Assembly: GCA_035699745.1 (NCBI GenBank)
Contig: DASSPH010000040.1
Span: forward strand, 62,001 to 126,000
DNA: 64,000 nt
DNA from: Vicinamibacterales bacterium
GTDB lineage: Bacteria; Acidobacteriota; Vicinamibacteria; Vicinamibacterales; 2-12-FULL-66-21
Reading direction: 5' to 3'
Below, in pieces: positions 3,293 to 60,225 of this stretch; position 1 is the stretch's first letter; each line of letters opens with the position of its first letter. The notes under the pieces were generated by a model, which was not told the origin of the DNA, ran no database searches, and worked only from the letters and a program-made list of their open reading frames with translations. The translations under genes were made by a program, and so were the position numbers.

Positions 3293-3299
3293 GGTCCCC

Positions 3300-3800: not shown

Positions 3801-3807
3801 GGGGATC

Positions 3808-7972: not shown

Positions 7973-7984
7973 TCACCGTTCGGC

Positions 7985-8009
7985 GTTCAGCTCGACGTCA
8001 CCGCTGAAC
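7985..8009. terminator. Possible terminator hairpin between convergent sppA and kdgK
   Basis: GTTCAGC (7985-7991) and GCTGAAC (8003-8009) form 7-bp arms around an 11-base loop at the convergent junction. There is no T-tract, so a factor-independent terminator is uncertain. Confidence 0.35.
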
Positions 8010-9035: not shown

Positions 9036-9673
9036 CGTGCGGAGGCGACGCTGGCGACGATGCGCCGCGCGTTGGCGGTCAGGACGTCGAAGCGCCCTTC
9101 CTCCACCGCCCTGGTGTCGAGCAGAGCGGATCCCACGCCGACGGCCACGGCGCCGGCGCGGATCCAGTCGCCGGCGTTGTCCAGCGAGACGCCGCCGGTC
9201 GGCATCAGCCGCACCTGCGGCAGCGGCGCGCGCACGTCCTTGATGAACTGCGGCCCGAGCGCGGTCGCGGGAAACACCTTGATCAGGTCCGCCCCGGCGT
9301 CGTGCGCGTCGAGGATCTCGGTCGGCGTGAAGCATCCCGGCGCGACCGCGACGTCGCGCTGGTGGCATGCCGCGATGACCTCGCGGCGGAAGACCGGGCT
9401 GACGACGTAGCGCGCGCCGGCGTCGATCACCGCCGCCGCCGTGGCGCCGTCCGTCACCGTGCCGGCGCCGAGCAGGATCTCCGCCGGAAGCGATCGCGCC
9501 AGGGTCGCGATCAGCTCCACCGCCCCCGGCACCGTCATCGTCACTTCGATCGCCCGGACGCCGCCTTCCGCGATGGCGTCGACGACGCGCCGCAGCTTCG
9601 CCGCGTCCTTCATGCGGATGACGGCGACGACGCCGAGCTGCTGGATCTGTTGCGCGGTCTCCTGGCGTGTCAC
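9032..9673 (-). CDS. eda: KDPG/KHG aldolase (2-dehydro-3-deoxy-phosphogluconate aldolase)
   Basis: This 213-residue class I aldolase has the Schiff-base lysine in the motif DLIKVFPA and the conserved GAGTV segment. It cleaves KDPG to pyruvate and glyceraldehyde 3-phosphate. A GTG start at 9673 ([20 protein letters not shown]) gives the normal N-terminus; the open frame continues upstream into the preceding gene without a better start. Its last bases overlap the kdgK start, so the two KDG steps are translationally coupled. Confidence 0.93.
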
Positions 9674-44086: not shown

Positions 44087-44937
44087 AGGCCACCTAGATT
44101 CCAGAACTCTCTCGCCGTGCCGCCGAGCATCCGCTGCTGCTCCGCGGGGGAGTACTCGTCCACTGCATCGCGAACCAGCGCGATCACTTCCGCATACGTC
44201 GCCGCCACCAGACAGACAGGCCAGTCGGACCCGATCATGATCCGATCCGGCCCGAAGGCGTCGAGCGCCGCGTCGAGATACGGCCGCAGCTGCCCTGGCG
44301 TCCAGCCGTGCCAGTCGGCCTCCGTGACCAGCCCCGAGAGCTTGCAGCATACGTTGGGAAGCGCCGCCAGTTCCCGCAGGCCCTGCCGCCACCCGTCGAA
44401 TTCGCCGCCGCGGACGTCCGGCTTGCCGAGATGATCGAGCACGAAGCGCTGCCGCGGAAACCGCCGCGCGAACTCGATCGCCTGCGGCAGCTGCCGCGCG
44501 TAGACGAGGATGTCATAGGCGAGCCCCGCCGGCTCGAGCCGCGCCACGCCGGACAGAAACCGCGGCCGCTGCAGGAATCCGTCGGGCTCCGCCTGCACGA
44601 TGTGCCGCACGCCGGCCAGCGCGCGATCCTCGGCGAATCCGGCCAGCTGCGCATCCACATCCTGCTGCAGGTCGATCCAGCCGACCACGCCGCGGACGAA
44701 CGGGTGCTCGCGCGCCAGATCCAGCAGCCACCGGGTCTCCTCGAGCGTCTGCCGCGCCTGCACGGCGATCGTCCCGCCGATTCCGGCGCGGTCCATCTCG
44801 CATTTCGCGTCGCGCGGAAGGAAATCGCGGCGGATGACCGCCATCGACTCGTCGATCCACGGGTACCCGGCCGCGTCGTAGCGCCAGTAATGCTGGTGCG
44901 CGTCGATCGTCTCGCCGGAGGGCTTCGCGTCGCTCAT
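44083..44937 (-). CDS. L-fuconolactonase-type amidohydrolase
   Basis: This 284-residue metal-dependent hydrolase of the amidohydrolase-2 (COG3618) family starts with IDAHQHYWRYD, whose histidines bind metal, and has FVLDHLGKPD and the C-terminal catalytic Asp in IMIGSDWP. The Xanthomonas fuconolactonase belongs to this family. It hydrolyses L-fucono-lactone to L-fuconate, the step before FucD. It lies 7 bp after the Gfo/Idh/MocA gene, which may make the lactone, and overlaps the binding-protein gene start. Confidence 0.9.
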   Translation of the reverse strand: MSDAKPSGETIDAHQHYWRYDAAGYPWIDESMAVIRRDFLPRDAKCEMDRAGIGGTIAVQARQTLEETRWLLDLAREHPFVRGVVGWIDLQQDVDAQLAGFAEDRALAGVRHIVQAEPDGFLQRPRFLSGVARLEPAGLAYDILVYARQLPQAIEFARRFPRQRFVLDHLGKPDVRGGEFDGWRQGLRELAALPNVCCKLSGLVTEADWHGWTPGQLRPYLDAALDAFGPDRIMIGSDWPVCLVAATYAEVIALVRDAVDEYSPAEQQRMLGGTAREFWNLGGL

Positions 44938-44944
44938 GCGCTCC

Positions 44945-45994
44945 TCACTCCGGGATCGCGGTCGCGCCGCGTGCGCTGGAGATGTAGCACGCCTCGACCA
45001 CGGCCATGGTCCTGACCGCGTCGTGCACCGGGCCGACGAGCGCGGCGTCCTCGCCGGCGACGTAGCGCTGCAGGTTCGACATCGGGCCTTCGAACGCTTC
45101 GGTGAACCACGAGCCGCGCAGCGGCACCGTCGCCCAGCCGCCGTCGAGGGCGACCTCCATCGTGTCCGGCGGCCCGGCCGGATATTCGAGGTTGACGCCC
45201 CACGTCAGGCGCGCCGCGCCGTTCAGTCCTTCGACGGTCATCTCCGATGTCTGGTGCCGCGGCCCGGCGCGGTGCGTGTGGTTCAGCACCAGCGAGCAGC
45301 GCAGCGCGTCGCCGTAGTCGAGGATGATCGTGCTGCGCGCGTCGCGCAGCGCCGGCGCCAGGGGGTGCCCGACGCCGCGGCAGTAGACGCCGCGCGGTTC
45401 GCCGGCGAGCCAGCGGATCGCGTCGAGATAGTGGATCGAGTGGTAGAGCACCTCCACCCGCGGAGCCCCGGCGAGAAACGTCCACAGGTGCCACGGCTGA
45501 TCGATCACGATGCGGACGTCGATGTCAACGATCGTCCCCAGCGCGCCGCGCGAGAGCAGATCGCGCAGGGCGAGCACGTTCGGGCTGAACCGCAGCTGGA
45601 AGTTCATCGCCGCGGTCAGCTTCCGCTCGGTGCAGCAGGCGAGGATCCGCCTGGCCGCCGGCAGATCGGTGCCCATCGGCTTCTGAATCAGCACGGCGGA
45701 TCCCTCGGGCAGCCGTTCGAGGACGCCGAGGATCTGGTCCCCCGGAACGGCGAGATCGAACACCACCCCGCGCTGTGCGGCCGCCGCGTCGAGCGTCGGG
45801 AACACCCGCGCGCCGGAGACCAGCGCGGCGGTGTCTCGCGCGCGGGACGGCTCGATGTCGTAGAAGCCGGCGACGGGATAGCCCAGCCTGCCGTACGCCG
45901 GCAGGTGAGCGGATCGCACGATCGCGCCCGCGCCGATGACGACGATCGGCCGCGCGCGTGCGGGACGCGGCCAGGCCTGCGTCAGGTCCTTCAC
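44945..45994 (-). CDS. Gfo/Idh/MocA-family oxidoreductase, candidate L-fucose dehydrogenase
   Basis: This 349-residue NAD(P)-dependent enzyme has the Rossmann motif VVIGAGAIVRSAHLPAYGRLG. At the usual E-K-P motif it has Q-K-P (LIQKPMGTD), keeping the lysine. A YHSIHYLDAIRWLAG segment carries the catalytic-region histidine. It has a GTG start at 45994, two bases after the mutarotase stop. In the operon it is the only oxidoreductase besides the KDF-type SDR and the flavoenzyme, so it may replace the SDR that oxidises L-fucose to the lactone in Xanthomonas. That role is inference. Confidence 0.85.
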   Translation of the reverse strand: MKDLTQAWPRPARARPIVVIGAGAIVRSAHLPAYGRLGYPVAGFYDIEPSRARDTAALVSGARVFPTLDAAAAQRGVVFDLAVPGDQILGVLERLPEGSAVLIQKPMGTDLPAARRILACCTERKLTAAMNFQLRFSPNVLALRDLLSRGALGTIVDIDVRIVIDQPWHLWTFLAGAPRVEVLYHSIHYLDAIRWLAGEPRGVYCRGVGHPLAPALRDARSTIILDYGDALRCSLVLNHTHRAGPRHQTSEMTVEGLNGAARLTWGVNLEYPAGPPDTMEVALDGGWATVPLRGSWFTEAFEGPMSNLQRYVAGEDAALVGPVHDAVRTMAVVEACYISSARGATAIPE

Positions 45995-45996
45995 GA

Positions 45997-46332
45997 TCAG
46001 GTCAGGCGGAAGACCGGCTGCATGCGCGCCCACCACTCGCCCGGCGCCGCACCGGGGATCGGCTGCTGCATCGACTTCATCAGCGCCTCCCATTCGGCCA
46101 CACGCGGATGCGATGCGGCATGCCGTTCGAAGATCGCCTGGTAGTCGCCGTTGCCGCCGGTCTCCACGATCATCACCAGGCGCCGGCCGAGCACGAAAAT
46201 CTCCATCCCCTGCAGGCCCGCCGCGCGCAGGCTGCGCAGCACCTCGGGCCACACGCGGCGATGATGTTCGAGGTAGCGCGCGATCACCGCGGGATCGTCC
46301 TTCAGATCGACCGCCAGGACGTGCCGGCTCAT
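45997..46332 (-). CDS. L-fucose/L-rhamnose mutarotase (COG3254 family)
   Basis: This 111-residue ferredoxin-like-fold protein has the family segments YLEHHRRVWPEVLRSL, GMEIFVLGRRLVMIVE and HPRVAEWEALMKSMQQP. It interconverts alpha and beta anomers of a 6-deoxy-L-sugar. In Xanthomonas the L-fucose mutarotase is of this type rather than FucU. It sits directly after the FAH gene (ATGA overlap) and before the putative fucose dehydrogenase, supporting fucose as substrate. Confidence 0.9.
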   Translation of the reverse strand: MSRHVLAVDLKDDPAVIARYLEHHRRVWPEVLRSLRAAGLQGMEIFVLGRRLVMIVETGGNGDYQAIFERHAASHPRVAEWEALMKSMQQPIPGAAPGEWWARMQPVFRLT

Positions 46333-47210
46333 CGCTCCCGCCGCCCTGCCGCGTCCGCGTCGGTCACGACCTGCTGGCGCGATTGTCCGAGCGCGTCGAT
46401 GCCGAGTTCGACGACGTCGCCCGCCTCGAGGAAGACGGGCTCCGGCTTCATGCCGAGCGCCACGCCGGCCGGCGTGCCGGTGCTGATCACGTCGCCCGGC
46501 AGCAGCGTCATGAATTGACTGACGTAGCTGACCAGCGCCGCCACCCCGAACGCCATGTTCGCGGTGGAGCCGCGCTGGCGCGTCTCGCCGTTGACGGTGA
46601 GCCACATGCCGAGCGCCTGCGGATCGGGAATCTCGTCCCGCGTGGCGAGAAACGGGCCGATCGGCGCGAACGTGTCGCAGCTCTTCCCCTTGACCCACTG
46701 ACCGCCGCGCTCGAGCTGGAAGCTGCGCTCGGAGTAGTCGTTGTGCAACGCGTAGCCGGCGACGTGATCCAGCGCGCGGCGTTCGTCGACATACGACGCG
46801 GCGCGGCCGATGACGACGGCGAGCTCGACTTCCCAATCGAGCTTGGTGCCGCCGCGGGGAATGCGCACCGGATCGTTCGGCCCGGCGATCGCCGAGCTCG
46901 CCTTGAAGAAGATGACCGGCTCCTTCGGCAGCTCCATGCCGCTCTCGGCGGCGTGGTCGCTGAAGTTCAGCCCGATGCAGACGATCTTGCTCGGCCGCGC
47001 GATCGGGCAGCCGATGCGCGCATCGGGGGGAAGGCGCGGGGCGGTGGCGCGCGCGCCGGCCATCCACCGGCGCAGATCGTCAAGGCCGTCGCCGGCGAAG
47101 AACGCCTCGTCGTAGTCGCGGACCTGGCCGGACGCGTCCAGCCGGGTGCCGTCCTCGAGCAGGATGCCGGGGCGCTCGGCGCCGAGCGGACCGTACCGCG
47201 CGAGCTTCAT
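46329..47210 (-). CDS. FAH-family hydrolase, 2,4-diketo-3-deoxy-L-fuconate hydrolase candidate
   Basis: This 293-residue fumarylacetoacetate-hydrolase-family enzyme contains CIGLNFSDHAAESGM, PVIFFKASSAIAGPND, the metal-binding DWEVELAVVIG and GDVISTGTPAGVALGMKP. It would hydrolyse the diketo acid to pyruvate and L-lactate, ending the non-phosphorylating fucose route. A paralogue lies at 59316. Both ends overlap neighbours as ATGA: the SDR upstream and the mutarotase downstream. Confidence 0.9.
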   Translation of the reverse strand: MKLARYGPLGAERPGILLEDGTRLDASGQVRDYDEAFFAGDGLDDLRRWMAGARATAPRLPPDARIGCPIARPSKIVCIGLNFSDHAAESGMELPKEPVIFFKASSAIAGPNDPVRIPRGGTKLDWEVELAVVIGRAASYVDERRALDHVAGYALHNDYSERSFQLERGGQWVKGKSCDTFAPIGPFLATRDEIPDPQALGMWLTVNGETRQRGSTANMAFGVAALVSYVSQFMTLLPGDVISTGTPAGVALGMKPEPVFLEAGDVVELGIDALGQSRQQVVTDADAAGRRER

Positions 47211-47977
47211 ACGGCGGTGGCTCCGCCGTCGATCGGATAGGCCTGGCCGGTGACGAAGGCCGCCTCGTCCGAGCAGAGATAGAGCGCGAGCTGCGCGATT
47301 TCCTCCGGCCGTGCCATGCGGCCGATCGGCTGGTACTCGGACAGGACCTTCATCATCTCGGCTTCGCGTCCCGGGTAGTTGCGCGCCAGGTAGCCATCGA
47401 CGAACGGCGTGTGGACGCGGGCCGGGCAGATGCAGTTGCAGCGGATGCCGCGTTTGACATAATCGACGGCGATCGATCGCGTCATCGTCAGCACCGCCCC
47501 CTTGGTCATCGCATACGCGAAGCGATCGGGCAGGCCGACGAGCGCGGCGATCGAGGCCATGTTGAGAATCACCCCGCCGCCCTGGCGCAGCATGATCGGC
47601 ACCGCGGCGCGGGCGCAGAGATAGACGCCGAACACGTTGACGCGGTAGAGGCGGTCGAGATCGTCGGGGGTCGTCTGTTCGATGCTGCCGACGTGGGCAA
47701 TACCGGCGTTGTTGACGAGGATGTCGAGGCGGCCGTGATCCGCCTCGAGCGATCGGAAGAGCGCCGCGACGTCGTCCGGATCGGAGACATCGCAGGGATA
47801 CCCCATGGCGGTGCCGCCGTCGCTGGTGATCTCGGCGGCGACGCGGCCGGCGGCGGTGGTGTCCCGATCGGCGGCGGCAATGGCGGCCCCCTGCCGGGCG
47901 AACAGCCTGGCGATGGCCGCGCCGATGCCCGAGCCGGCCCCGGTCACGACGGCGACCTTCCCCTGGAGATCGAACAT
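47207..47977 (-). CDS. SDR dehydrogenase, 2-keto-3-deoxy-L-fuconate dehydrogenase candidate
   Basis: This 256-residue short-chain dehydrogenase has VTGAGSGIGAAIARLF, NNAG, MASIAAL and the catalytic YAMTK. Segments such as GLPDRFAYAMTKGAV, VKRGIRCNCICPARV and QPIGRMARPEEIAQLALYL resemble the Xanthomonas enzyme that oxidises 2-keto-3-deoxy-L-fuconate at C4, more than the L-fucose dehydrogenase. It heads the ten-gene fucose operon. The ATG at 47977 lies 23 bp inside the LacI-type operator; an upstream in-frame ATG would fall in the operator. Confidence 0.9.
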   Translation of the reverse strand: MFDLQGKVAVVTGAGSGIGAAIARLFARQGAAIAAADRDTTAAGRVAAEITSDGGTAMGYPCDVSDPDDVAALFRSLEADHGRLDILVNNAGIAHVGSIEQTTPDDLDRLYRVNVFGVYLCARAAVPIMLRQGGGVILNMASIAALVGLPDRFAYAMTKGAVLTMTRSIAVDYVKRGIRCNCICPARVHTPFVDGYLARNYPGREAEMMKVLSEYQPIGRMARPEEIAQLALYLCSDEAAFVTGQAYPIDGGATAV

Positions 47978-48100: not shown

Positions 48101-51100
48101 ATGAAACGGTTCGTGTGCACGCTCGCAATGCTCCTGGCGGCCGCCCTGGGCGCATCGGCGCAGGACTTCCGAGGCGGCATTACCGGCCGCATCACCGACT
48201 CGTCCGGCGGCCGGCTGCCCGGCGTGACCGTCACGGCGACCAACGTCGCCACCAACGTCGCCTCCAGCACCACCACGAACGGCGAGGGGGATTACGCCAT
48301 CCTGTTCCTCAACCCCGGCATCTACTCGCTGACCGCCGAGTTGTCCGGGTTCAAGAAGGTCCTCCGCAGCAATCTGGAAGTGAGCGTCGGCGATCGGCTC
48401 GGCGTGGACCTCACGCTCGAAGTCGGCGCGCTGGCCGAGACCGTCTCGGTCACCGCCGAGAGCCCGATGCTGGTGACCACCTCCGGCTCGACGGGACAGA
48501 CCATCGGCGAGAAGACGATCGCGATGATGCCGCTCTCGGACGGCAATCCGTTCGCGCTGGCGCGGCTCGCACCGGGGCTGGCCTACACCGGCGACCTGAA
48601 GTTCTCGCGTCCGTTCGACAACGCCGGCACGTCGGGGATCACCGTCGGCGGCGCGCAGGGGGGCAACGAGTTCTCGCTCGACGGATCGCCGAACATGGCC
48701 AACGGCCGCCGCGTGGCCTTCGTGCCGCCGGCCGGCGCGGTGCAGGAATTCAAGGTGGAGACCGCGAGCTTCGACGCGGCGAGCGGCCATACGGCCGGCG
48801 CGACGGTGAACGTCACCCTGAAGAGCGGCACCAACAGCCTGAAGGGGTCGGCCTACACCTATTACCGCTCCGACAAGCTCGCCGAGAAGGACTTCTTCGT
48901 GAAGAAGGCGAACGCGGCCAAGCCGGGGCTCAGCTACAACCGTCCGGGCTTCACGTTCGGCGGGCCGATCGTGGTGCCCGGCTACGACGGCCACGACAAG
49001 TCGTTCTTCTTCGCCGCCGTCGAGTGGCTCTATGACGAGTTCCCCGAGCCGCTGTTCCAGACGGTGCCGACGCAGGCGATGCGCAACGGCGATTTCTCGG
49101 CGCTGCTGGCGCAGGGCATCGTCATCTACGACCCGCAGTCGGCGCAGCCCTCGACCGGCACCGGCGTCATCCGCCAGCCGTTCGCCGGCAACATCATTCC
49201 CACCGGCCGGATCAATCCGATCGCGCAGCGCGTGCTGAACTCGTACCCGCTGCCGAACCAGCCGGCCGACGCCGGGGGGCGCAACAACTTCTTCTATACC
49301 AATCCGCGGACCGACGACTTCTACTCGGTGTCGACGCGGTTCGATCACACGATCACGCCGAAGCAGCGGCTGATGGCGCGCTACACCCGCAACGATCGGC
49401 GCGAAGCGCGCGGCGCGGAGCTGGGCACCGTGGACGGCATGGTGCCGCGCGGCAACTTCCTGTTCCGCAAGAACGACGGCGTCACGGTGAACCACACCTG
49501 GACGCAGAGCAACAGCTCGCTGTGGGAGCTGCGCGGCGGCTGGCAGCAGTTCCGCGAGCCCAACGTCCGGCAGCACGAGGGCCTCTTCGATCCGGCGTCG
49601 CTCGGCTTCTCCCCGGGCGTCGTCAACCTGTTCCGCGGCGCGCGGTATTTCCCGCTGTTCGACTTCGACACGCTGAGCGACATCGGCGACAACCTGGCCG
49701 GCAACACCACCCACCGGATCTATTCGTTCCAGCCGACCTACACCAAGCTGACCGGCGGCCACGCGATCCGCGCCGGCTACGACGTGCGCAAGTACTGGGA
49801 GTTCGGCGAGAATGCCGCGCGCCAGGCGGGGGAGTATCAGATGCGCAACGGCAGCGCGTTCACCCGCCAGACCAATACCTCCGCGGCGCAGAACTTCCAG
49901 GACGTGGCGACGTTCCTCACCGGCTTCCCGACCGGCGGCTCGATCGACGTCAACGGGAAGCGCACCAACAGCCAGTGGTACCACGCCGTGTTCGTGCAGG
50001 ACGACTGGAAGATCTCCGGCAAGCTGACGCTGAACCTCGGCCTCCGCTACGAGTACGAAGCGGCGCCGACGGAAGCGAACAACGCCGTGGTCCGCGGGTT
50101 CGATCCGAACGCGATGCTGTCGATCAGCAATGCCGCCGAAGCCGCCTACGCGGCGCGGCCCGACGTGATTGCGGCGTCGCAGTGGCGGGCGCGCGGCGGC
50201 ATCGGCTTCGCCTCGGACAGCAGTCCGGGGACCTACGACCCCGACAAGAACAACGTGCAGCCGCGGCTCGGCTTCGCCTACACGCTCAATCAGAACACCG
50301 TCATTCGCGGCGGCTGGGGCATCTACACCACCCCCTTCGTGTTCTCGAACGGCGCAGGCAACCAGATGGGCTTCTCGCAGTCGACGCCGTATACGGCGAC
50401 GCAGAACAACGGCCTCACCTTCCAGTCGACGCTGAACAATCCGTATCCCAACGGGGTGCTGCAGCCGGCGGGCAACTCGCTCGGGCCGAACACGTTCCTC
50501 GGCCAGAGCCTCACCCGCTTCATGCCGCTCGACGCGCAGAACCCGCAGCTGTCGCGCTACGTCGTCAACGTGCAGCGGCAGCTGCCGTCGCGCTGGCTGC
50601 TCGAAGTCGGCTACGCCGGCAGCCGCGGGTTCAACCTCAGCACCGACGAGGAGCTCAACACGATTCCGGCGCAGTATCTGTCGACGAGCCGGGTCCGCGA
50701 TCAGGCGGTCATCGACTATCTCTCGGTGCAGGTGCCGAACCCCTTCGCCGGCGGACTGCTGCCGACCGGCTTCACCGGCGCGAACGTCGCGCGCTCGCAG
50801 CTGCTGCGGCCGTTCCCCCAGTTCAACAACGTGCCCACCTGGGGCTCCGACGGCACCAGCCAGTACGACTCGTTCCAGACCAAGATCGAGAAGCGCTTCA
50901 GCGGCGGCTACTCGATCATGGGCACCTACACGTGGTCGCATTTCACGGAAAAGGTGTTCCGGCTGAACGCGACCGACGCCGACTTCGAGAAGCGTCTCGC
51001 GCGCGACGACGTGCCGCACCGCGTCACCACGAGCATCCTCTACGAGCTGCCGTTCGGACGCGGGCGCGCGTTGGCCTCCGAGGCCGGCGGCGTGCTGAAC

Positions 51101-51601
51101 GCGATCATCGGCGGCTGGAGCCTCAACGCCATCGGCCAGTTCCAGAGCGGGCGGCCGCTGGACTTCTCGGGCCGCAACGTCTACTTCAACGGCGACCTCG
51201 ACGCGCTCGAGGCGAAGTACACCAACAACAGCGATCAGCCGGTATTCGACATCAGCGGCTTCTACTTCCACGACGCCGCGGTGCAGACCAACGGCGTGGA
51301 CGATCCGGTCAAGCAGCGCGCCGACACCCGGATCCGCCTGGCCAACAACGTGCGCTACTTCCCGTCGCGCATCGACGGCATCCGCAGCCCGTTCCTCAAG
51401 CTGTGGGACATCTCGCTCGTCAAGCAGGTGCCGATCGGCGGCCGCGTGCGGGCGCAGTTCAACCTCGAGTTCCTCAACGCGTTCAACACCGTGGTGTTCA
51501 ACGACGCGAACACCGATCCGACCAACGCGGACTTCGGCAAGGTGACGAGCCAGAACAACCTGCCGCGCGACATCCAGCTCGCGGCGAAGATCGTTTGGTA
51601 G
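48101..51601 (+). CDS. TonB-dependent receptor, Oar-like, third copy
   Basis: This 1166-residue outer-membrane receptor has a signal peptide (FVCTLAMLLAAALGASA) and a carboxypeptidase-regulatory-like domain (ITGRITDSSGGRLPGVTVTA). A plug region (IGEKTIAMMPLSDGNPFALAR) leads into a barrel whose C-terminus, DIQLAAKIVW, ends in Trp rather than Phe. AGGGGGA before the ATG at 48101 decides the start; the frame is open further upstream. It diverges from the fucose operon across the operator at 48001. It probably binds the same kind of fucosylated substrate as the first receptor. Confidence 0.9.
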   Translation: MKRFVCTLAMLLAAALGASAQDFRGGITGRITDSSGGRLPGVTVTATNVATNVASSTTTNGEGDYAILFLNPGIYSLTAELSGFKKVLRSNLEVSVGDRLGVDLTLEVGALAETVSVTAESPMLVTTSGSTGQTIGEKTIAMMPLSDGNPFALARLAPGLAYTGDLKFSRPFDNAGTSGITVGGAQGGNEFSLDGSPNMANGRRVAFVPPAGAVQEFKVETASFDAASGHTAGATVNVTLKSGTNSLKGSAYTYYRSDKLAEKDFFVKKANAAKPGLSYNRPGFTFGGPIVVPGYDGHDKSFFFAAVEWLYDEFPEPLFQTVPTQAMRNGDFSALLAQGIVIYDPQSAQPSTGTGVIRQPFAGNIIPTGRINPIAQRVLNSYPLPNQPADAGGRNNFFYTNPRTDDFYSVSTRFDHTITPKQRLMARYTRNDRREARGAELGTVDGMVPRGNFLFRKNDGVTVNHTWTQSNSSLWELRGGWQQFREPNVRQHEGLFDPASLGFSPGVVNLFRGARYFPLFDFDTLSDIGDNLAGNTTHRIYSFQPTYTKLTGGHAIRAGYDVRKYWEFGENAARQAGEYQMRNGSAFTRQTNTSAAQNFQDVATFLTGFPTGGSIDVNGKRTNSQWYHAVFVQDDWKISGKLTLNLGLRYEYEAAPTEANNAVVRGFDPNAMLSISNAAEAAYAARPDVIAASQWRARGGIGFASDSSPGTYDPDKNNVQPRLGFAYTLNQNTVIRGGWGIYTTPFVFSNGAGNQMGFSQSTPYTATQNNGLTFQSTLNNPYPNGVLQPAGNSLGPNTFLGQSLTRFMPLDAQNPQLSRYVVNVQRQLPSRWLLEVGYAGSRGFNLSTDEELNTIPAQYLSTSRVRDQAVIDYLSVQVPNPFAGGLLPTGFTGANVARSQLLRPFPQFNNVPTWGSDGTSQYDSFQTKIEKRFSGGYSIMGTYTWSHFTEKVFRLNATDADFEKRLARDDVPHRVTTSILYELPFGRGRALASEAGGVLNAIIGGWSLNAIGQFQSGRPLDFSGRNVYFNGDLDALEAKYTNNSDQPVFDISGFYFHDAAVQTNGVDDPVKQRADTRIRLANNVRYFPSRIDGIRSPFLKLWDISLVKQVPIGGRVRAQFNLEFLNAFNTVVFNDANTDPTNADFGKVTSQNNLPRDIQLAAKIVW

Positions 51602-51609
51602 GGGGTCCC

Positions 51610-53019
51610 TTGCAGCACTCGGGAACCGAGGTCGCGAACGCCCCGTTGCTTCGCGACCTCCCCGAGCCGCCGCGCAACATCTGGCGCATCGTCGGGCCCG
51701 GGGTGATCGCCGCCGGCGTCGGCGTCTCCTCGGGCGAGTTCATCCTCTGGCCGTACATCGCCTCGCAGGCCGGACTCGTCTTCCTGTGGGCGGCGGTGCT
51801 CGGGATTCTGACCCAGCTCTTCCTCAACATGGAGATCGAGCGCTACACCCTGGCGACGGGAGAGACCGCGCTCATCGGCTTCAACCGGTTCTGGAAGCAC
51901 TGGGGCCTGGTGTTCGCGCTGATGGTCTACTTCGCGAACCTCTGGCCCGGCTGGGCGCTCAGCTCGGCGACGCTCGCCACCTTTCTGTTCGGCGGCAACC
52001 CGGCCTACATCGCCGTCGGCGTGCTGCTGGTGATCGGCGTCGGCCTGACGCTGGCGCCGGTGGTCTACCTCGCGCTGGAGCGGCTGAACTTCCTGAAGGT
52101 CGCGATGGTGCTGACGCTGATCGCGCTGGCGCTCGTCTTCGCGGTGACCGCCGACACCTGGCGCGCGCTGCCGGCCGGGCTGGCGAGCGTCGGCACGATC
52201 CCGTCCGAGCTGGGCTTCGCGCTGCTCCTCGGATCCGTGGCGTTTGCCGGCGCCGGCGGCGGACAGAATCTCTGCCAGAGCAACTGGATCCGCGACAAGG
52301 GCTTCGGCATGGGGCAATACGTGCCGCGGCTCGTCAGCCCGCTCACCGGCGAGGAACAGGTGAGTGCCGCCGCCGTCGTCTCGTACCGCTTCGAGCCCAC
52401 GGCCGCCAACATGGCGCGCTGGTCGCGCTGGTGGCGCTTCGCCAACATCGAACAGGCGGCGACCTTCGCGCTGGTCAGCATCCTGACGATCACGCTGACG
52501 TCGATGCTCGCGCACTCGATGCTGTTCGGCGAGAAGGGGCTGCCGACCACCGTCATGTTCCTGCAGATCGAAGGACGGCGGCTGCAGGAGGTCGTCGGGC
52601 CGTGGTTCGGCCTCCTGTTCTGGGCGACCGGCGCGTTCTCGCTGTTCACGTCCGCGATGGGGATCACCGACTACACCAGCCGGCTCGCGGCGGACGTGCT
52701 CAAGTCCACCTACCTGCGCACGTCCACGGTCAGCGAGAGCCAGATCTATTTCTGGCTGGTGTGGGGGCTGGTGGCGATCGGCTGCGTCATCCTGCTGAGC
52801 GGCCTCGCGCAGCCGCTCGTCCTGCTCGTCATCTCGGCCTGCGTCGGCGGGACGATGATGTTCCTCTATTCCGGCCTGCTGATCCTGCTGAACCGCCGGC
52901 ACCTGCCGGCGCCGATCCGGATCCGCGGCGTCCGCATCGCCGTGCTCGTGTGGTCGATCGCGTTCTTCGGGGTGCTCGCGGGGCTGACCGTGTGGCAGCA
53001 GGTACAGCGATTTCTGTGA
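51610..53019 (+). CDS. Nramp-fold transporter lacking the canonical metal motifs
   Basis: This 469-residue protein has about 11 membrane helices and the Nramp/APC-fold layout. Helix 1 reads GPGVIAAGVGVSSGEFILW, where metal transporters have D-P-G-N. The helix-6 region reads AFAGAGGGQNLCQSNWIRD, where they have M-P-H. The metal-binding Asp, Asn and Met are therefore absent, so manganese or iron transport is doubtful. It starts with TTG, 8 bp after the receptor stop and after a GGGGG ribosome binding site. The following Fe-S oxidase gene overlaps it as GTGA, suggesting an organic-acid or sugar-acid substrate. Confidence 0.82.
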   Translation: MQHSGTEVANAPLLRDLPEPPRNIWRIVGPGVIAAGVGVSSGEFILWPYIASQAGLVFLWAAVLGILTQLFLNMEIERYTLATGETALIGFNRFWKHWGLVFALMVYFANLWPGWALSSATLATFLFGGNPAYIAVGVLLVIGVGLTLAPVVYLALERLNFLKVAMVLTLIALALVFAVTADTWRALPAGLASVGTIPSELGFALLLGSVAFAGAGGGQNLCQSNWIRDKGFGMGQYVPRLVSPLTGEEQVSAAAVVSYRFEPTAANMARWSRWWRFANIEQAATFALVSILTITLTSMLAHSMLFGEKGLPTTVMFLQIEGRRLQEVVGPWFGLLFWATGAFSLFTSAMGITDYTSRLAADVLKSTYLRTSTVSESQIYFWLVWGLVAIGCVILLSGLAQPLVLLVISACVGGTMMFLYSGLLILLNRRHLPAPIRIRGVRIAVLVWSIAFFGVLAGLTVWQQVQRFL

Positions 53020-54326
53020 TATCGCATGCAGACGCGTTGAAGACCATCGATTACGCGCTGCTCCAGCAGTGCATGCGCTGCGGCATGTGCCTGCCGGCGT
53101 GTCCGACCTACGACGCGACCGGGCGCGAGCGCCACAGTCCGCGCGGACGGATCGCCCTGATGCGGGCGATCGCCGACGGCGACCTCGAGGTCAATCGGGT
53201 GTTCGCCGAGGAGATGAGCTACTGCCTCGGATGTCTCGCCTGCCAGACGGCGTGTCCCGCGGGCGTGCAGTACGGCGTGCTGTTCGAAACGGCGCGCAGT
53301 GACATCCGCCGGAGCGGCGTCGACGCGGGCCCGCGGCGGCGGTTCTGGCGCGGCCTGACGCTGCACTTTCTCTTCATGCGGCCGGGTGCGCTGCGGCTGG
53401 CCGGCCGCGCGCTGCGGGTCTATCAACGGACGGGACTCGAGCGGCTGGCGCGGCGGCTCGAGCTGACGCGGCTGCTGCCGCCGGATCTCCGCCGTCTCGA
53501 GCCGCAGGCGCCGGCGATCGCCCGGCGGTTCTCCGATCGGCTGATTGCGCCGCGCGAAGCGCCGCGCGGCGCGGCGCGCGGCCGGGTCGCCGTGCTCACC
53601 GGCTGCATCCAGGACCTCGTCTTTCCGGCGATCAACCGCGACACCGTCGACGTGGCGCTGGCGAACGGCTACGAAGTCGAGACGCCGCGCGGGCAGTCCT
53701 GCTGCGGATCCCTGCACGCGCACAACGGCGAGCCGGAGCTGGCGCGGACGCTCGCCCGGCGGCTGATCGACCTGATTCCGCCCGATCGCTACGACGCCAT
53801 CCTCAGCAACGCCGGCGGCTGCGGATCGCACCTGCGGCATTACGGCGCGCTTCTCGCGGACGACGCCGAGTACGCCGGCCGGGCGCGCGCCTGGGATCGA
53901 AAGCTCCGCGATGTACAGGAGTGGCTGATCGAAATCGGCTGCCGCACGCCGTCGCGGGCGCCGTTCGACCGCGAGACGGCGATCACGTATCACGACTCCT
54001 GTCACCTCGCGCACGGCCAGAAGGTGTCCCGCCAGCCGCGGGAGCTGCTGCGGCTCCTGCCCGGTGTGACGCTCACCGAGCTGCCGGAGTCGTCGTGGTG
54101 CTGCGGCAGCGCCGGCATCTACGCCATCACGCAGCCGGCGCAGGCCGACGCGCTGCTGCAGCGCAAGGTCGCCAACATCCGCGGCACCGGCGCCGCCATC
54201 GTCGCCGCCGCGAACCCCGGTTGCCACCTGCAGATCGCGCGCGGGCTGAGCCAGGTCAGCGCACCGATCGAGGTCGTGCATCCGGTATCGCTGCTCGCCG
54301 AAGCGTACAGGCGCGAGCGGACGTGA
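53016..54326 (+). CDS. GlcF-like (Fe-S)-binding oxidase subunit
   Basis: This 436-residue protein has two ferredoxin-type cysteine clusters near the N-terminus (CMRCGMCLPACP and CLGCLACQTACP). Two CCG-type domains follow, with SCCGSLHAHNGE, GGCGSHL, TYHDSCHLAHG and SSWCCGSAG. This is the layout of the iron-sulfur subunit of glycolate oxidase and D-lactate dehydrogenase complexes. It would pass electrons from a GlcD-type flavoprotein to the respiratory chain. No GlcD is adjacent; one lies at 60226. The GTG overlaps the Nramp-like gene stop. Confidence 0.9.
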   Translation: MISHADALKTIDYALLQQCMRCGMCLPACPTYDATGRERHSPRGRIALMRAIADGDLEVNRVFAEEMSYCLGCLACQTACPAGVQYGVLFETARSDIRRSGVDAGPRRRFWRGLTLHFLFMRPGALRLAGRALRVYQRTGLERLARRLELTRLLPPDLRRLEPQAPAIARRFSDRLIAPREAPRGAARGRVAVLTGCIQDLVFPAINRDTVDVALANGYEVETPRGQSCCGSLHAHNGEPELARTLARRLIDLIPPDRYDAILSNAGGCGSHLRHYGALLADDAEYAGRARAWDRKLRDVQEWLIEIGCRTPSRAPFDRETAITYHDSCHLAHGQKVSRQPRELLRLLPGVTLTELPESSWCCGSAGIYAITQPAQADALLQRKVANIRGTGAAIVAAANPGCHLQIARGLSQVSAPIEVVHPVSLLAEAYRRERT

Positions 54327-54431: not shown

Positions 54432-55211
54432 TTATCGCGCCGTCCAGCCGCCGTCGACGAACAACGCGCTGCCGGTGACGAATGACGACGCGGGCGAGGC
54501 GAGGAAGACCACCGCCCCCTCGAGTTCGTCGAGCTCTCCCCAGCGTCCCATCGGAATCTGTCTGACGAACTCCTGGTACTTCACCGGATCGTCGAGCAGC
54601 GCCCGGTTCATCTCCGTGCCGAACGGTCCCGGGCAGATCGCGTTCACCGTCACGCCGCTCCCCGCCCACTCGAGGGCCAGGACGCGAGAGAGGTTGAGCA
54701 CGCCGGCCTTCGCCGACGCGTAGGGGGCGCGGCCGGGCAGCGCGATCACCGAGAGGATCGACCCGAGATTGATCACGCGTCCCCACCCGCGGCGCACCAT
54801 CTTCGGCCCGGCCAGCCGCGAGCACAGGAACGTGCCCTTCAGGTTGGTGTCGAGGACCGAATCCCAGTCGTTCTCGGTGAGCTGTTCGACGGAGCCGCGG
54901 ATGTTGTTGCCGGCGTTGTTGATCAGGATGTCGATGCCGCCGAACTCCGCCTCCACCTTCGCGAACATCCGCTCCACGTCGGCGGCAACGGTCACGTCGG
55001 CCTGGACGCCCATGCACCGCCGGCCGGTCGTCTGCGAGATGGCGTTCGCGGTGTCGTCGCAGCGTGCGAGCGTCCGGCCGGCGAGGACGACATCCGCGCC
55101 GACCTGCGCGAGCGCCGTCGCCATCGTCTTGCCGAGACCCTGGCCTCCACCGGTGATGAGGGCCACCTTGCCGTCGAGCCGGAACCTGTCGAGTACTGAC
55201 GTCTGATTCAC
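54432..55211 (-). CDS. SDR-family dehydrogenase, gluconate 5-dehydrogenase-like
   Basis: This 259-residue short-chain dehydrogenase has [36 protein letters not shown], catalytic YASAK and a C-terminal [12 protein letters not shown]. It has a GTG start at 55211, 25 bp after the MFS stop. It shares the operon with a sugar-acid MFS transporter and diverges from the GntR/IlvD/FAH/GlcD genes. It may therefore supply the 4-dehydrogenase step whose own gene is reduced to a relic at 59208-59299. Oxidation of a 2-keto-3-deoxy acid is the inferred role. Confidence 0.87.
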
Positions 55212-55236
55212 GCGAGCGTCTCCTCCGTGTGCCGAT

Positions 55237-56520
55237 CTAGGCCGCCTGGCGCGCGTGCACCGGCGCCTGCCGCAGCGGGGTATGCGAGTCGAGGAACAGC
55301 CAGCAGAAAGCGCCGATCAGGTAGATCGCCGCCGAGACGTAGAACGTGATCGTCCAGTTGCCGGTCCACGCCAGCAGATACCCCACCACGAGCACCGACG
55401 ACGCGCCGGCGATGCTGCCCATCATGTTCATCGCGCCGGCGACGGTGCCGGCGTAGCGGCCGCCGATGTCCATCGTGCCGGCCCATGCCGCCGGCATCAC
55501 GAAGTCGTTGAAGAACCCCGCGAAGCCGAGCACGATCATCGCGCGCCGCGGATCCTCGATGCCGGTGAAGATGAAGATGCAGGCGGACGCGCCGACGAAC
55601 CCGGTGATGGCGACGGCGCGGCGCGCCGCCGCGACGCTGCCGAGCGACCGCGCCAGCCTCGGGATCACGCCCGCCGAGACGATACAGCCGAGGCCTCCGA
55701 GCAGCAGCGGCAAGCCGGCGAGCAGCGCGCCCATCCTGAGCGTGGTGCCGCGCGATTCCCGCAGGTAGGTCGGCAGCCAGTTGATGTAGAACCACCAGCC
55801 GTAGGCCAGGCACATGTACTGGATCGACAGCAGCCACACCGCCGGCGTCGAGAAGATCAGCCGCCACGGCACGCCGCTGTGCGCGATGGCGGTCTCTGAC
55901 GGCGGCGGCAACAGCGCGAGCTCCGCCGCGTTGACGCCCGGGTGCTCGCTCGGCGCGTCGCGGTACCAGAGATAGAAGAACACCGCCCAGATCGCCCCGA
56001 GGAGGCCGAGGATCTCGAACGTGCGCCGCCAGCCGAGCAACCCGATCAGCGTGGCGACGAGAAGCGGCGTGAACGCGCCGCTGACCCGCGTCGCCAGCCA
56101 GACCGTCGCCTGCGCGCGCTCGCGCTCGCGCACCGGCAGCCAGGTCGTGAGCACGCGGGTGAGATTGGGGAACGCCCCCGCCTCGCCGGCGCCGAACAGC
56201 GCGCGGGTGGCGATCAGCGATGCGGCGTTCCAGGCGAAGCTCGTGGCGGCCGTGAAGGCGGACCACCACAGGACGATGCGCAGCAGCACCCGGCGCGGGC
56301 CGATCTTGTCGCCGAGCCAGCCGCCCGGAATCTCGAAGACGGCGTAGGCCCACCCGAAGGCGGCGAGCGCCCACGCCATCTGCGTCTTCGACAGCGCGAG
56401 ATCGGTGCTGATGAACGGCGCGGCGACCGAGATCGCGACGCGATCCACATAGGTGATGACGGCGAGCGCCACGGCGAACGCGGTGACGCCGTGACGTACC
56501 CGGGACGGCGGTGGGGTCAT
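55237..56520 (-). CDS. MFS transporter, sugar-acid (ACS) family
   Basis: This is a 427-residue, 12-helix transporter with [17 protein letters not shown] at helix 1, [15 protein letters not shown], and [24 protein letters not shown]. These are hallmarks of the glucarate/galactonate/hexuronate branch. It probably imports the sugar acid handled by the divergent IlvD/Edd module. The ATG at 56520 lies 9 bp after a TATACT hexamer, so the message is nearly leaderless. It differs clearly from the MFS genes at 18055 and 22762. Confidence 0.87.
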
Positions 56521-56529
56521 GGCGCGGCG

Positions 56530-56535
56530 AGTATA
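56530..56535 (-). promoter_or_regulatory. -10 hexamer TATACT of the MFS-SDR operon
   Basis: TATACT on the minus strand lies 9 bp before the ATG at 56520, the same hexamer and nearly the same spacing as at 6180. The matching -35 position overlaps the TGCATGCAGA repeat at 56555, a candidate GntR site. Confidence 0.5.
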
Positions 56536-56554
56536 TCGCTGTCGAGGGGAGCAA

Positions 56555-56564
56555 TGCATGCAGA
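56555..56564 (+). promoter_or_regulatory. TGCATGCAGA repeat, candidate GntR operator (copy 1)
   Basis: This 10-bp word, with the self-complementary core TGCATGCA, occurs here and at 56640-56649, both in the 171-bp gap between divergent MFS and gntR genes. This copy covers the likely -35 region of the MFS promoter. A third weak relative, ATGTGCAC, lies between them. Confidence 0.4.
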
Positions 56565-56639
56565 TGCACACGCGCCGGGTCGCGCGCTCCACCAAAATGT
56601 GCACGAATTCTCCGCAGCGCCCGCCGCGTCGTCGGCGAT

Positions 56640-56649
56640 TGCATGCAGA
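56640..56649 (+). promoter_or_regulatory. TGCATGCAGA repeat, candidate GntR operator (copy 2)
   Basis: Second exact copy, 42 bp upstream of the gntR start, where binding could give autoregulation. The intergenic gap holds no open frame I can support. Confidence 0.4.
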
Positions 56650-56691
56650 GCGAGCGGCGTGTTAGGCTTCGCGCCGGAGTAGCGAACGCTC

Positions 56692-57486
56692 GTGGAACCG
56701 CAGACCCAACGTCTCGAGTCGCAGACGCTGTCCGCGCTGCTGCAGATGCGCGAGCTGCTGCTGCGCGGCGAGTTCCGCTCCGGCGAGCGGCTTCGCGAGA
56801 TCCCGCTGGCGGCCCGTCTCAAGGTGTCGCGCACGCCGCTGCGGCTGGTGCTCGACCGTCTCGAGCAGGAGGGGCTGCTCGCCAGCCGGCCGACCGGCGG
56901 CTTCGTCGCCGCGGAGTTCACCGTCCAGGACATCCACGACGGCATCGAGATCCGCGGCATGCTCGAAGGGACGGCGGCGCGGCTGGCCGCCGAGCGGCTG
57001 AAGAGTCCGGACGAGCTCGCGCCGGCGCGCGAGTGTCTGGAGCGCACCGATCGGCTGCTCGAGCGCTGGGCCTCGGGCACCGACTCGCTGGCGCAGTACA
57101 TCGCGCTCAACGAGCGGTTCCACGATCTGCTGCTCGACCTCGCCAGGAGCCCGATGGTCCGCCGCGCGGTGTCGCGCGCCGCCGCGCTGCCGTTCGCCTC
57201 GCCCAACGCGTTCATCCTCGGGCACGCACAGAAGAAGGAAGGGCAGGAGGTCGTCACCATCTCGCAGATGCACCACCGCGCCATCGTCGACGCCATCGCG
57301 CACCGTGAAGCGACGCGCGCCGAGGCGCTGGCGCGCGAGCATTCGCGGCTGGCGCGCACCAGCCTCGAGATGGTGCTGCGCGACAAGGCGCTCTTCACCC
57401 GCGTTCCCGGAGCGTCCCTCATCAGGTTTCCCGAGACGGCCTCGAACGCTCGCGGATCCGAGGCGGCGGGCAGGCCACAGCCGTGA
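56692..57486 (+). CDS. GntR-family regulator with FCD effector domain
   Basis: This 264-residue regulator has an N-terminal winged helix (ALLQMRELLLRGEFRSGERL, then LAARLKVSRTPLRLVLDRLEQEGLL). A helical FCD domain has metal-binding histidines in NERFHDLLLDLARSP and MHHRAIVDAIAHREATRAE. FCD regulators usually sense sugar acids or other organic acids. It starts with GTG at 56692 and overlaps the dehydratase gene as GTGA. It likely represses the dehydratase operon and the divergent MFS-SDR operon until the sugar acid is present. Confidence 0.9.
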   Translation: MEPQTQRLESQTLSALLQMRELLLRGEFRSGERLREIPLAARLKVSRTPLRLVLDRLEQEGLLASRPTGGFVAAEFTVQDIHDGIEIRGMLEGTAARLAAERLKSPDELAPARECLERTDRLLERWASGTDSLAQYIALNERFHDLLLDLARSPMVRRAVSRAAALPFASPNAFILGHAQKKEGQEVVTISQMHHRAIVDAIAHREATRAEALAREHSRLARTSLEMVLRDKALFTRVPGASLIRFPETASNARGSEAAGRPQP

Positions 57487-59207
57487 GCACGCGCACCTAC
57501 CGATCGGCCGCCTGGTTCGGCAAGCACGACAAGGACGGCTTCATCCACCGCAGCTGGATGCGCAACCAGGGGCTGCCCGCGGACGTCTTCGACGGGCGTC
57601 CCGTCGTCGGCATCTGCAACACCTGGTCGGAGCTGACCCCCTGCAACGCCCACCTGCGCGCCATCGCCGAGCACGTGAAGCGCGGGGTGTGGGAATCGGG
57701 CGGGCTGCCGCTCGAGTTCCCCGTCATGTCGACCGGCGAGTCGAACATGCGGCCGACGGCGATGCTCTACCGCAATCTGGTCAGCATGGACGTCGAGGAG
57801 TCGATCCGCGCGAATCCGATCGACGGCGTCGTGCTCCTGTGCGGCTGCGACAAGACGACGCCGTCGCTCGTCATGGGGGCGGCGAGCTGCGACGTGCCGG
57901 CGCTGGTCGTCTCCGGCGGGCCGATGCTCAACGGCAAGTACTGCGGGCAGGACATCGGATCCGGCACCGACGTGTGGAAGTTCAGCGAGGACGTCAAGGC
58001 CGGCATCATGACCGCCGAGCAGTTCATGGACGCGGAGGCGTGCATGTCACGCTCCGCCGGCCACTGCATGGTGATGGGCACGGCGTCGACGATGGCATCG
58101 ATGGTCGAGGCGCTCGGGCTCGGGCTGCCGTTCAATGCCACGCTGCCGGCCGTCGATGCGCGCCGTCATGCGCTGGCGCACCTCGCCGGCCGCCGCATCG
58201 TCGCGCTGATCGAGCAGGACGTCCGGCTGTCGCACATCCTCACCCGGCCGGCGTTCGAGAACGCGATCCGGGTCAACGGCGCGCTGGGCGGCTCCACGAA
58301 CGCGGTGATTCACCTGCTGGCGATGGCCGGCCGCGTCGGCGTGCCGCTCTGCCTCGACGACTGGGATCGTCTCGGCCGCGACGTGCCGACGCTGGTCGAT
58401 CTCAAGCCGTCCGGGCGCTTCCTGATGGAGGACTTCCACTACGCCGGCGGCCTGCCCGCGGTGATTCGAACGCTCGGCGAGCGCGGCTTGATCCATCGCG
58501 ACGCGATGACGGTGAACGGCCGCACCCTGTGGGAGAACTGTCACGACGCGTCGCGCTGGAACGCCGAGGTCATCAGGCCGATCGATCGGCCGCTCGCCGA
58601 GAGCGGCGGCGTCGCGGTCCTGCGCGGCAACCTCGCGCCCGACGGCGCGGTGCTGAAGCCGTCGGCGGCGTCGGCGCACCTGATGCAGCATCGCGGCCGC
58701 GCGATCGTGTTCGACGACATCGAGGACTACAAGGCGCGGATCAACGATCCGGCGCTCGGCGCCGACCCGTCGTCGGTGCTCGTCCTGAGGAACAGCGGGC
58801 CGGTGGGCTACCCGGGGATGGCGGAAGTGGGCAACATGGGGCTGCCGCCGGCGCTCCTGAAACAGGGGATCACCGACATGGTGCGCATTTCGGACGCGCG
58901 CATGAGCGGTACGGCGTACGGCACCGTCGTCCTGCACATCTGCCCCGAAGCGGCCGTCGGCGGACCGCTCGCGCTGGTGCGCGAAGGGGATTACATCGAG
59001 CTCGACGTGGCGGCGCGGCGGCTGCACCTCGACGTGAGCGATGAGGAGCTGGCGCGGCGGCGGGCGGCCTGGCAGCCGCCGCCGGCGCCTCCGCCAAGCG
59101 GGTACGTTCACATGTACGTGCGGCACGTCCAGCAGGCGGACAAGGGCGCCGATCTCGACTTTCTCCGCGGCTGCCGCGGACACGGAATCCCACGTGAGTC
59201 TCACTGA
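57483..59207 (+). CDS. IlvD/Edd-family sugar-acid dehydratase (arabinonate/xylonate type)
   Basis: This 574-residue dehydratase binds an Fe-S cluster through C54 (TPCNAHL), C122 (CGCDKTTPS) and C195 (SAGHCMVMG). Spacings of 68 and 73 fit the sugar-acid branch such as L-arabinonate dehydratase. The C-terminal DLDFLRGCRGHGIPRESH is also typical of that branch. It converts an aldonate to a 2-keto-3-deoxy acid. With the FAH hydrolase and GlcD downstream it fits a pathway giving pyruvate plus glycolate or lactate. Substrate (L-arabinonate, D-xylonate or L-fuconate) is not decided. The GTG overlaps the gntR stop. Confidence 0.92.
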   Translation: MSTRTYRSAAWFGKHDKDGFIHRSWMRNQGLPADVFDGRPVVGICNTWSELTPCNAHLRAIAEHVKRGVWESGGLPLEFPVMSTGESNMRPTAMLYRNLVSMDVEESIRANPIDGVVLLCGCDKTTPSLVMGAASCDVPALVVSGGPMLNGKYCGQDIGSGTDVWKFSEDVKAGIMTAEQFMDAEACMSRSAGHCMVMGTASTMASMVEALGLGLPFNATLPAVDARRHALAHLAGRRIVALIEQDVRLSHILTRPAFENAIRVNGALGGSTNAVIHLLAMAGRVGVPLCLDDWDRLGRDVPTLVDLKPSGRFLMEDFHYAGGLPAVIRTLGERGLIHRDAMTVNGRTLWENCHDASRWNAEVIRPIDRPLAESGGVAVLRGNLAPDGAVLKPSAASAHLMQHRGRAIVFDDIEDYKARINDPALGADPSSVLVLRNSGPVGYPGMAEVGNMGLPPALLKQGITDMVRISDARMSGTAYGTVVLHICPEAAVGGPLALVREGDYIELDVAARRLHLDVSDEELARRRAAWQPPPAPPPSGYVHMYVRHVQQADKGADLDFLRGCRGHGIPRESH

Positions 59208-59299
59208 CCCGGTGCCTGGCGGCGTGGCTGGTCTCCGACGGGAATTCGATCTCGACCGGCGCCGTGTTCGACATCAGCGGCGGCCGTTCGACCTGCTGA
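59208..59299 (+). pseudogene. Relic of an SDR dehydrogenase gene (C-terminal end only)
   Basis: Between the dehydratase and FAH genes, frame 2 reads AWLVSDGNSISTGAVFDISGG, then RSTC and a stop at 59297. This is the C-terminal signature of sugar-acid SDR dehydrogenases (S-x-x-T-G-A-V-F-D-x-S-G-G-R). No start codon or cofactor motif exists before it; the frame is closed by TGA at 59195. An SDR gene once located here, as expected for a dehydratase-dehydrogenase-hydrolase operon, appears to have been deleted internally. Confidence 0.75.
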
Positions 59300-59315
59300 A
59301 CGCGAGCCAGGCGGC

Positions 59316-60167
59316 GTGAAACTGCTTCGCTACGGTCCCGCCGGCGCCGAGAAGCCGGGGCTGCTCGACGGCCGCGGCACGATCCGCGATCTCTCCGGGC
59401 AGGTGCCGGATCTCTCGGGTGCCGCGCTGCTGCCGGAATCCATCGCGCGGCTCGCCTCGCTCGATCCCGAGTCGCTGCCGGCGGTCGCCGGCGCGCCGCG
59501 GATCGGCCCGTGCGTCGCCGGCGTCGGCAAGTTCATCTGCGTCGGGCTCAATTACTCCGATCACGCCGCCGAGTCCAACATGGCCGTGCCCGCGGAGCCG
59601 ATCATCTTCATGAAGGCGACCTCCTCGATCGTCGGCCCGAACGACGACCTCGAGATCCCGAAGGGATCGCAGAAGACCGACTGGGAAGTCGAGCTGGGCG
59701 TCGTCATCGGCAGGCCGGCGAAGTACGTGGACCCGCGGGATGCGATGGCGCACGTCGCCGGGTTCTGCGTGGTGCACGACGTCTCGGAGCGCGCCTTCCA
59801 GCTCGAAGGCACGGGCCAGTGGGTGAAAGGCAAGAGCGCCGACACCTTCGGACCGGTCGGCCCGTGGCTGGTCACTCCGGACGAGATCGCCGATTGTCAG
59901 AACCTCGACTTGTGGCTCGACGTCGATGGCCGCCGCCGCCAGAGCGGCAACACCCGCACGATGGTGTTCGACGTGCGCTATCTCGTGAGCTATCTGAGCG
60001 GGTTCATGAGCCTGCGTCCCGGCGACATCATTTCCACCGGCACGCCGCCAGGCGTCGGCCACGGGATGAAGCCGCCGGTCTACCTGCGCGAAGGGAACGA
60101 CGTGCGTCTCGGCGTCCAGGGCCTCGGCGAACAGCGTCAACGCGTCATCGGCTACCGGAATCACTGA
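59316..60167 (+). CDS. FAH-family hydrolase, 2,4-diketo-3-deoxy sugar-acid hydrolase candidate
   Basis: This 283-residue enzyme is a clear paralogue of the product at 46329. Both share CxGLNxSDHAAES, the metal site DWEVEL-x-VVIG, GQWVKGKS and GDIISTGTPPGVGHGMKP. It has a GTG start at 59316, inside the tail of the SDR relic region. It would cleave a 2,4-diketo-3-deoxy acid to pyruvate and a 2-hydroxy acid (glycolate from pentonates, lactate from 6-deoxyhexonates). GlcD just downstream could oxidise that product. Confidence 0.9.
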   Translation: MKLLRYGPAGAEKPGLLDGRGTIRDLSGQVPDLSGAALLPESIARLASLDPESLPAVAGAPRIGPCVAGVGKFICVGLNYSDHAAESNMAVPAEPIIFMKATSSIVGPNDDLEIPKGSQKTDWEVELGVVIGRPAKYVDPRDAMAHVAGFCVVHDVSERAFQLEGTGQWVKGKSADTFGPVGPWLVTPDEIADCQNLDLWLDVDGRRRQSGNTRTMVFDVRYLVSYLSGFMSLRPGDIISTGTPPGVGHGMKPPVYLREGNDVRLGVQGLGEQRQRVIGYRNH

Positions 60168-60225
60168 TCTGTCTCTGCCCGCTTCCGCCCTCGGCGCGCT
60201 CGCATCGATCGTCGGCGACGACTCG

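Follow-up and report, generated by a model that had tools for sequence, protein, structure and literature searches.

A candidate sugar-acid or 2-hydroxy-acid transporter with an Nramp fold and an invariant Ser-Gly-Glu signature at the place of the DPGN motif

The window analysed here, a 64,000-nucleotide stretch of a Vicinamibacterales genome, carries on its plus strand a gene for an Nramp-related transporter of 469 amino acids, which begins with a TTG codon at 51610 and ends with a TGA stop at 53017–53019. As the initial annotation had described, the gene is held tightly between a TonB-dependent receptor gene, whose stop lies 8 bp before the TTG, and a GlcF-like gene that can start at the GTG at 53016, so that the four bases GTGA (53016–53019) are common to the start of one gene and the stop of the other. 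Repeats within the transporter gene were short, chance matches only. The transporter, its two key motifs and the genes around them are as follows:

44086–44937, minus strand: L-fucono-1,5-lactonase-like amidohydrolase (NF052480, 305.9 bits, cut-off 400; PF04909)
46000–46332, minus strand: L-rhamnose/L-fucose mutarotase, rhaM (PF05336)
46332–47210, minus strand: second FAH-family hydrolase (NF053535, 359 bits)
47210–47977, minus strand: second SDR dehydrogenase
48101–51601, plus strand: Oar-like TonB-dependent receptor (Pfam OMP_b-brl_4, 635 bits)
51610–53019, plus strand: Nramp-related transporter, SGE branch of NF037982 (open reading frame, NCBIfam, AlphaFold2 model, PDB matches)
51727–51738, plus strand: TM1 S40-S41-G42-E43 at the DPGN place (alignments; S41, G42 and E43 in 41/41 homologues)
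52246–52269, plus strand: TM6 A213-G-A-G-G-G-Q-N220, replacing the MPH segment with one residue fewer (alignments)
53016–54326, plus strand: GlcF-like Fe-S subunit, glycolate oxidase/lactate dehydrogenase type, GTG start (Pfam CCG, Fer4_8)
54435–55211, minus strand: SDR dehydrogenase
55240–56472, minus strand: MFS transporter, D-galactonate-transporter type (TIGR00893, 234.8 bits, below the cut-off of 395; PF07690)
56692–57486, plus strand: GntR-family regulator
57483–59207, plus strand: IlvD/EDD sugar-acid dehydratase (NF004784, 933 bits)
59316–60167, plus strand: FAH-family diketo-deoxy-sugar-acid hydrolase (NF053535, 420 bits, cut-off 500)
60226–61551, plus strand: GlcD-like FAD 2-hydroxy-acid dehydrogenase (TIGR00387, 494.7 bits, cut-off 567.9)

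Judged from their sequences, these genes look like a non-phosphorylating L-fucose/L-rhamnose-type route. The sugar is a tentative assignment, because several of them match below curated cut-offs, among them the IlvD/EDD gene against the L-arabinonate dehydratase model NF009559 (873 bits, cut-off 882) and the GlcF-like gene against both NF008434 GlcF (234 bits) and LdhH (218 bits). Route 3 of L-fucose degradation yields pyruvate and L-lactate (PMC11199699), a product that fits the adjoining GlcD and GlcF genes. The set is partly doubled, with two FAH-family and two SDR genes flanking the TonB receptor, transporter and GlcF genes (44086–47977 and 54435–61551), and a second IlvD/EDD gene lies past the end of the window on the same contig (131761–132690), about 12 kb downstream of the first. 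The window also encodes a ribose-type ABC system, and a substrate call from the window alone was dropped because three transporters share the locus.

The NCBIfam model NF037982 (Nramp_1) matches the window protein over its whole length with 503.8 bits, against a curated cut-off of 50, and also recognises the canonical MntH of the same genome (192 bits); Pfam PF01566 gave no match to the window protein up to an E value of 10. Since a sequence-only search of the PDB found nothing, either with the single protein (up to E 1) or with a 41-row profile (up to E 10), the link to a solved fold required a structure model. The AlphaFold2 model (mean pLDDT 84.9, pTM 0.87) has as its best solved match DraNramp (6d91, Foldseek E 1.5e-10), with a VIA Z of 33.2 and an rmsd of 3.0 over 394 aligned residues, followed by the YcsG model 9a52 (Z 33.0), human NRAMP1 (32.7) and EleNRMT (30.4), while members of other APC families such as AdiC and SLC7A10 score lower, at about 26–27. 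The protein thus has an Nramp/LeuT fold, as had been proposed from the sequence, and homology to the Nramps rests on the shared NF037982 match together with this structure.

The changes in the two helices that line the metal site of canonical Nramps were described correctly by the initial annotation, which had read a VSSGE-type sequence in place of DPGN and GGGQN in place of MPH. In TM1 of the window protein (AAGVGVSSGEFILWPYI; in a second printed form, GVGVSSGEFILWPYI), S40-S41-G42-E43 occupies the DPGN columns of canonical MntH by both alignment methods; the hhalign comparison of two narrow profiles, at 0.2%, did not reach a significant score, yet it placed SSGE on DPGN. In TM6 (AFAGAGGGQNLCQSNWIRDKG), MAFFT sets GA-GGGQ-NL, one residue shorter, against the GA-TVMPH-NL of canonical MntH. 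Across 41 homologues, S41, G42 and E43 are invariant, E43 standing at the position of the TM1 Asn; position 40 is Ala, Ser or Gly, and the TM1 Asp is absent from every one. The TM6 stretch A213-G214-A215-G216-G217 is likewise invariant and is followed by Gly, Val or Ala, then Gln or Asn, then an invariant Asn (N220), and Q223, S224, N225 and R228-D229-K230 are further residues shared by all 41. Because the S-G-E residues are conserved across these homologues, they form a family signature and do not reflect drift in a single gene. It had also been claimed that the metal ligands were removed, which is correct for the Asp and the Met; the alignments indicate, however, that the binding site retains an acidic residue, the Asn position now being an invariant Glu.

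Both motifs that define a canonical Nramp, DPGN in TM1 and A/CxxM-PH in TM6, were tested and found missing, so the window protein is not a member of that class. Nor does it belong with the NRMT (Mg2+) or NRAT (Al3+) clades, both of which keep the TM1 Asp (PMC8806188): the NRMT signature DxxG/TxxA/T is absent, with SxxE on TM1 and no Thr at the TM6 position, as is the NRAT signature DxxN/AxxT. With an Nramp fold and neither DPGN nor MPH, the protein has the features of the Nramp-related proteins, a paraphyletic set.

We then considered the genes next to its relatives. The survey covered the 80 closest loci with their flanks from one scan, a set from the window's order and an even sample of Actinomycetota, and neighbour calls on the wrong strand were left out of the gene maps (some in L132, L134, L136, L138, L147, L149, L166 and L168). 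Occurrence of the family is rare and patchy, with members in 5/247 sampled genomes of the window's phylum, 23/296 Actinomycetota and 3/398 genomes of the phylum of Povalibacter. Members on no fewer than five branches of the family tree are adjoined by 2-hydroxy-acid enzymes; the recurrent partners are IlvD/EDD and FAH proteins, dehydrogenases of the GlcD, GlcF, LldD and LutABC types, OtnK/PdxA2 and LarA, all of which have 2-hydroxy acids or the immediate products of these as substrates. In the seven Streptomyces loci the transporter is the first gene of the operon, with an IlvD/EDD gene directly 3' of it, then FAH in most and, in L046 (Streptomyces jeddahensis), GlcD too. A Vicinamibacterales locus (L036) and an Acidobacteria locus (L100) pair the transporter with a xylonate-type dehydratase through 4-bp overlaps, the latter adding FAH and an aldehyde dehydrogenase. 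In one Vicinamibacteria genus (g12), three genomes have the transporter next to IlvD and a GlcD-GlcF fusion, and a fourth has it next to an LldD-type enzyme. LutABC, LarA and OtnK/PdxA2 accompany the transporter of Rubrobacter indicoceani and most of its tree neighbours in the even sample, and an L-lactate permease (LctP) and an FAD/Fe-S dehydrogenase lie near those of the haloarchaea Haloarcula and Halobellus. The lactate or glycolate link suggested by the initial annotation therefore survives in part: GlcF or GlcDF, LldD, LutABC and LctP do recur in several lineages, but the neighbours extend beyond these, and dehydratases of sugar acids and genes for C4 sugar acids are commoner partners than lactate and glycolate genes.

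Other branches of the Nramp-related set were met in the same survey. One protein (L133:8111-9418) has GSGELIVTP in TM1 and, in TM6, GASELIYYPYW, which holds a second Glu; its neighbours resemble GMC oxidoreductase, fucosidase, sugar isomerase and Gfo/Idh genes. A Rubrobacter indicoceani plasmid (L142) carries two paralogues from different branches, at 2566–3990 and 7920–9389, within one sugar-acid/lactate cluster (UxaA, LutABC, LarA, OtnK, PdxA2), and a further branch (L135:8566-10029) has GGGE in TM1 and retains the NWLRDKGFGMG segment after TM6.

Counting a locus as positive when the transporter has one or more marker genes within about 10 kb, we found 9/80 positives among the closest loci (seven of them from one Streptomyces lineage), 5/10 in the window's order (four from one genus) and 13/22 in the even Actinomycetota sample (all 13 apparently one clade), so the sets are not independent; near canonical MntH the count was 0/14. 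The chance background was taken from the density of marker genes per genome. Genomes hold 2–4 IlvD and 3–5 GlcD-type genes, and with 2–4 IlvD per genome one within 10 kb is expected by chance in about 1% of cases. Among the ten genomes of the window's order that bear an SGE protein, five have IlvD within about 6 kb, representing three lineages when the genus is counted once. No marker was present in 71/80 of the closest loci; most close relatives have no such neighbour, and the members from Nonomuraea, Kribbella and Micromonospora have unrelated genes around them.

From the fold, the replaced ligands, the conserved signature and the neighbourhood pattern we infer an organic substrate, its import, the kind of acid and any ion coupling, and propose, with a probability of roughly 0.55, that the window protein transports sugar acids or short 2-hydroxy acids. 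It would be a LeuT/Nramp-fold secondary transporter for a 2-hydroxy carboxylate, either an aldonate sugar acid or a lactate- or glycolate-type acid freed in sugar-acid degradation. In the window it would serve the putative L-fucose/L-rhamnose-type route, the L-lactate from which GlcF and GlcD may oxidise. Glu43, an invariant residue where TM1 is unwound, could be the ligand of a proton, a cation or the hydroxyl groups of the substrate. The exact acid is probably not the same in every clade: Streptomyces and Acidobacteria would take C5/C6 acids, the Rubrobacter clade C4 acids and haloarchaea lactate-type acids. An organic substrate is favoured by the absence from all 41 homologues of an Asp that every characterised metal clade keeps, and by the precedent of PxpT, discussed below. 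Against a 2-hydroxy acid count the marker-free majority of the closest loci, the lactate permease already present in the haloarchaeal loci, and the lack of an invariant Arg or Lys placed in the substrate site; the window, moreover, already encodes a ribose-type ABC system as well as the galactonate-type MFS transporter, and could do without a third sugar-acid importer.

The main rival is transport of a divalent cation through a site for the hydrated ion, of the kind that EleNRMT (Mg2+) has and that is claimed for YcsG/MntG and MumT (Mn2+), which would supply cofactors to the adjoining enzymes. Sugar-acid dehydratases and FAH enzymes do depend on divalent metal, the fold is nearest to that of the metal Nramps, and a hydrated ion could find ligands in Glu43, which is invariant, Q/N219 and N220. 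YcsG and MumT, likewise encoded in catabolic operons, raised cellular Mn (PMC10448178, PMC5050338). We nevertheless consider this explanation unlikely, as the TM1 Asp is never present, the partner enzymes have a substrate class in common and not a metal, and the genome has its own canonical MntH; that an Rfam search, including metal riboswitches, gave no match near eight loci and in the window stretch is weak evidence in the same direction.

Transport of another organic solute of the same pathways, such as the parent sugar, a lactone, a polyol like inositol or a keto acid, also has to be weighed. In SCN 69-37 (L034) the transporter gene comes after a ribose-type ABC operon and before an inositol-dehydrogenase-like gene, in Amaricoccus macauensis (L096:8215-12308) it separates the substrate-binding gene of a sugar-type ABC system from the permease gene, and other Nramp-related branches occur in GMC-oxidoreductase, fucosidase and Gfo/Idh loci (L133). 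LutABC, LldD, LctP, LarA and OtnK/PdxA2, on the other hand, act on acids and not on sugars or polyols, and we regard such a solute as improbable. Export of the lactate or glycolate that FAH cleavage sets free, suggested by the L-lactate released in route 3 (PMC11199699), appears very improbable, since the same loci encode dehydrogenases that would consume these acids and the Streptomyces transporter stands first in its operon, before the dehydratase. Should the 2-hydroxy-acid reading be true, it would supply the sugar-acid or lactate importer still missing from several non-phosphorylating pathways and would mean that the name 'Nramp family divalent metal transporter' misleads in many database entries; how the Nramp metal site evolved from APC carriers of organic solutes could then be tested on living intermediates.

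That such proteins exist, and that they lack the two motifs, was already known. Cellier described orphan outgroups of Slc11 (PMC10606218), and a 2026 preprint from the Gaudet group treats the Nramp-related proteins as paraphyletic, with diverse residues where DPGN and MPH would stand, uncharacterised save for EleNRMT and the hypothesised MntG (PMC12873925). In open-licence papers we found neither the cross-phylum hydroxy-acid neighbourhood link nor any prior report tying an Nramp to fucose/rhamnose, xylonate or polysaccharide loci or to sugar acids; one literature match for xylonate concerned Nramp mice. The initial annotation's view of a repurposed fold, which implies that an earlier metal transport was lost, probably has the direction reversed, because the Nramp-related proteins lie as a paraphyletic set outside the canonical Nramps in that tree, where the metal motif arises after their branches (PMC12873925). 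A wider proposal, that the S-G-E branch is an unrecognised Nramp-fold family for sugar acids or 2-hydroxy acids, which occurs widely, if patchily, in bacteria and haloarchaea under the wrong name of metal transporter, and that together with PxpT it points to an organic ancestral substrate with metal coming later, is possible but in our view doubtful.

Compared with known systems, the window protein shares its fold, core helices and NF037982 match with canonical Nramp/MntH (SLC11; DraNramp, ScaDMT), which has DPGN and MPH, whereas the window family has Ala, Ser or Gly for the Asp, an invariant Glu for the Asn and no PF01566 match. The NF037982 name, 'Nramp family divalent metal transporter', asserts a metal transport that the site residues do not support despite the full-length match, and is probably misleading for the ligand-lacking branch, the equivalog model covering canonical MntH as well. 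The Nramp-related set, with its G-motif groups, and Cellier's orphan outgroup likewise have the Nramp fold without DPGN or MPH (PMC12873925, PMC10606218). EleNRMT has the same fold and an altered metal site, but unlike the window protein keeps the TM1 Asp, as do all characterised metal clades (DxxN-AxxM, NRAT DxxN-AxxT and NRMT DxxG-TxxA/T; PMC8806188). PxpT and YcsG (MntG), from 5-oxoprolinase operons, are likewise Nramp-fold transporters encoded with catabolic enzymes, although their partner enzymes differ from those of the window family. YcsG has been claimed as a Mn importer (PMC10448178), and MumT, from a urea operon, raises cellular Mn (PMC5050338), while PxpT, an Nramp-family homologue of YcsG, is needed by C. 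glutamicum for growth on 5-oxoproline (PMC13274462). Given these reports, organic substrates in the Nramp fold are a live question and not a new idea; the window family bears on this dispute between organic substrate and manganese, in which PxpT supports an organic acid as the substrate of an Nramp fold.
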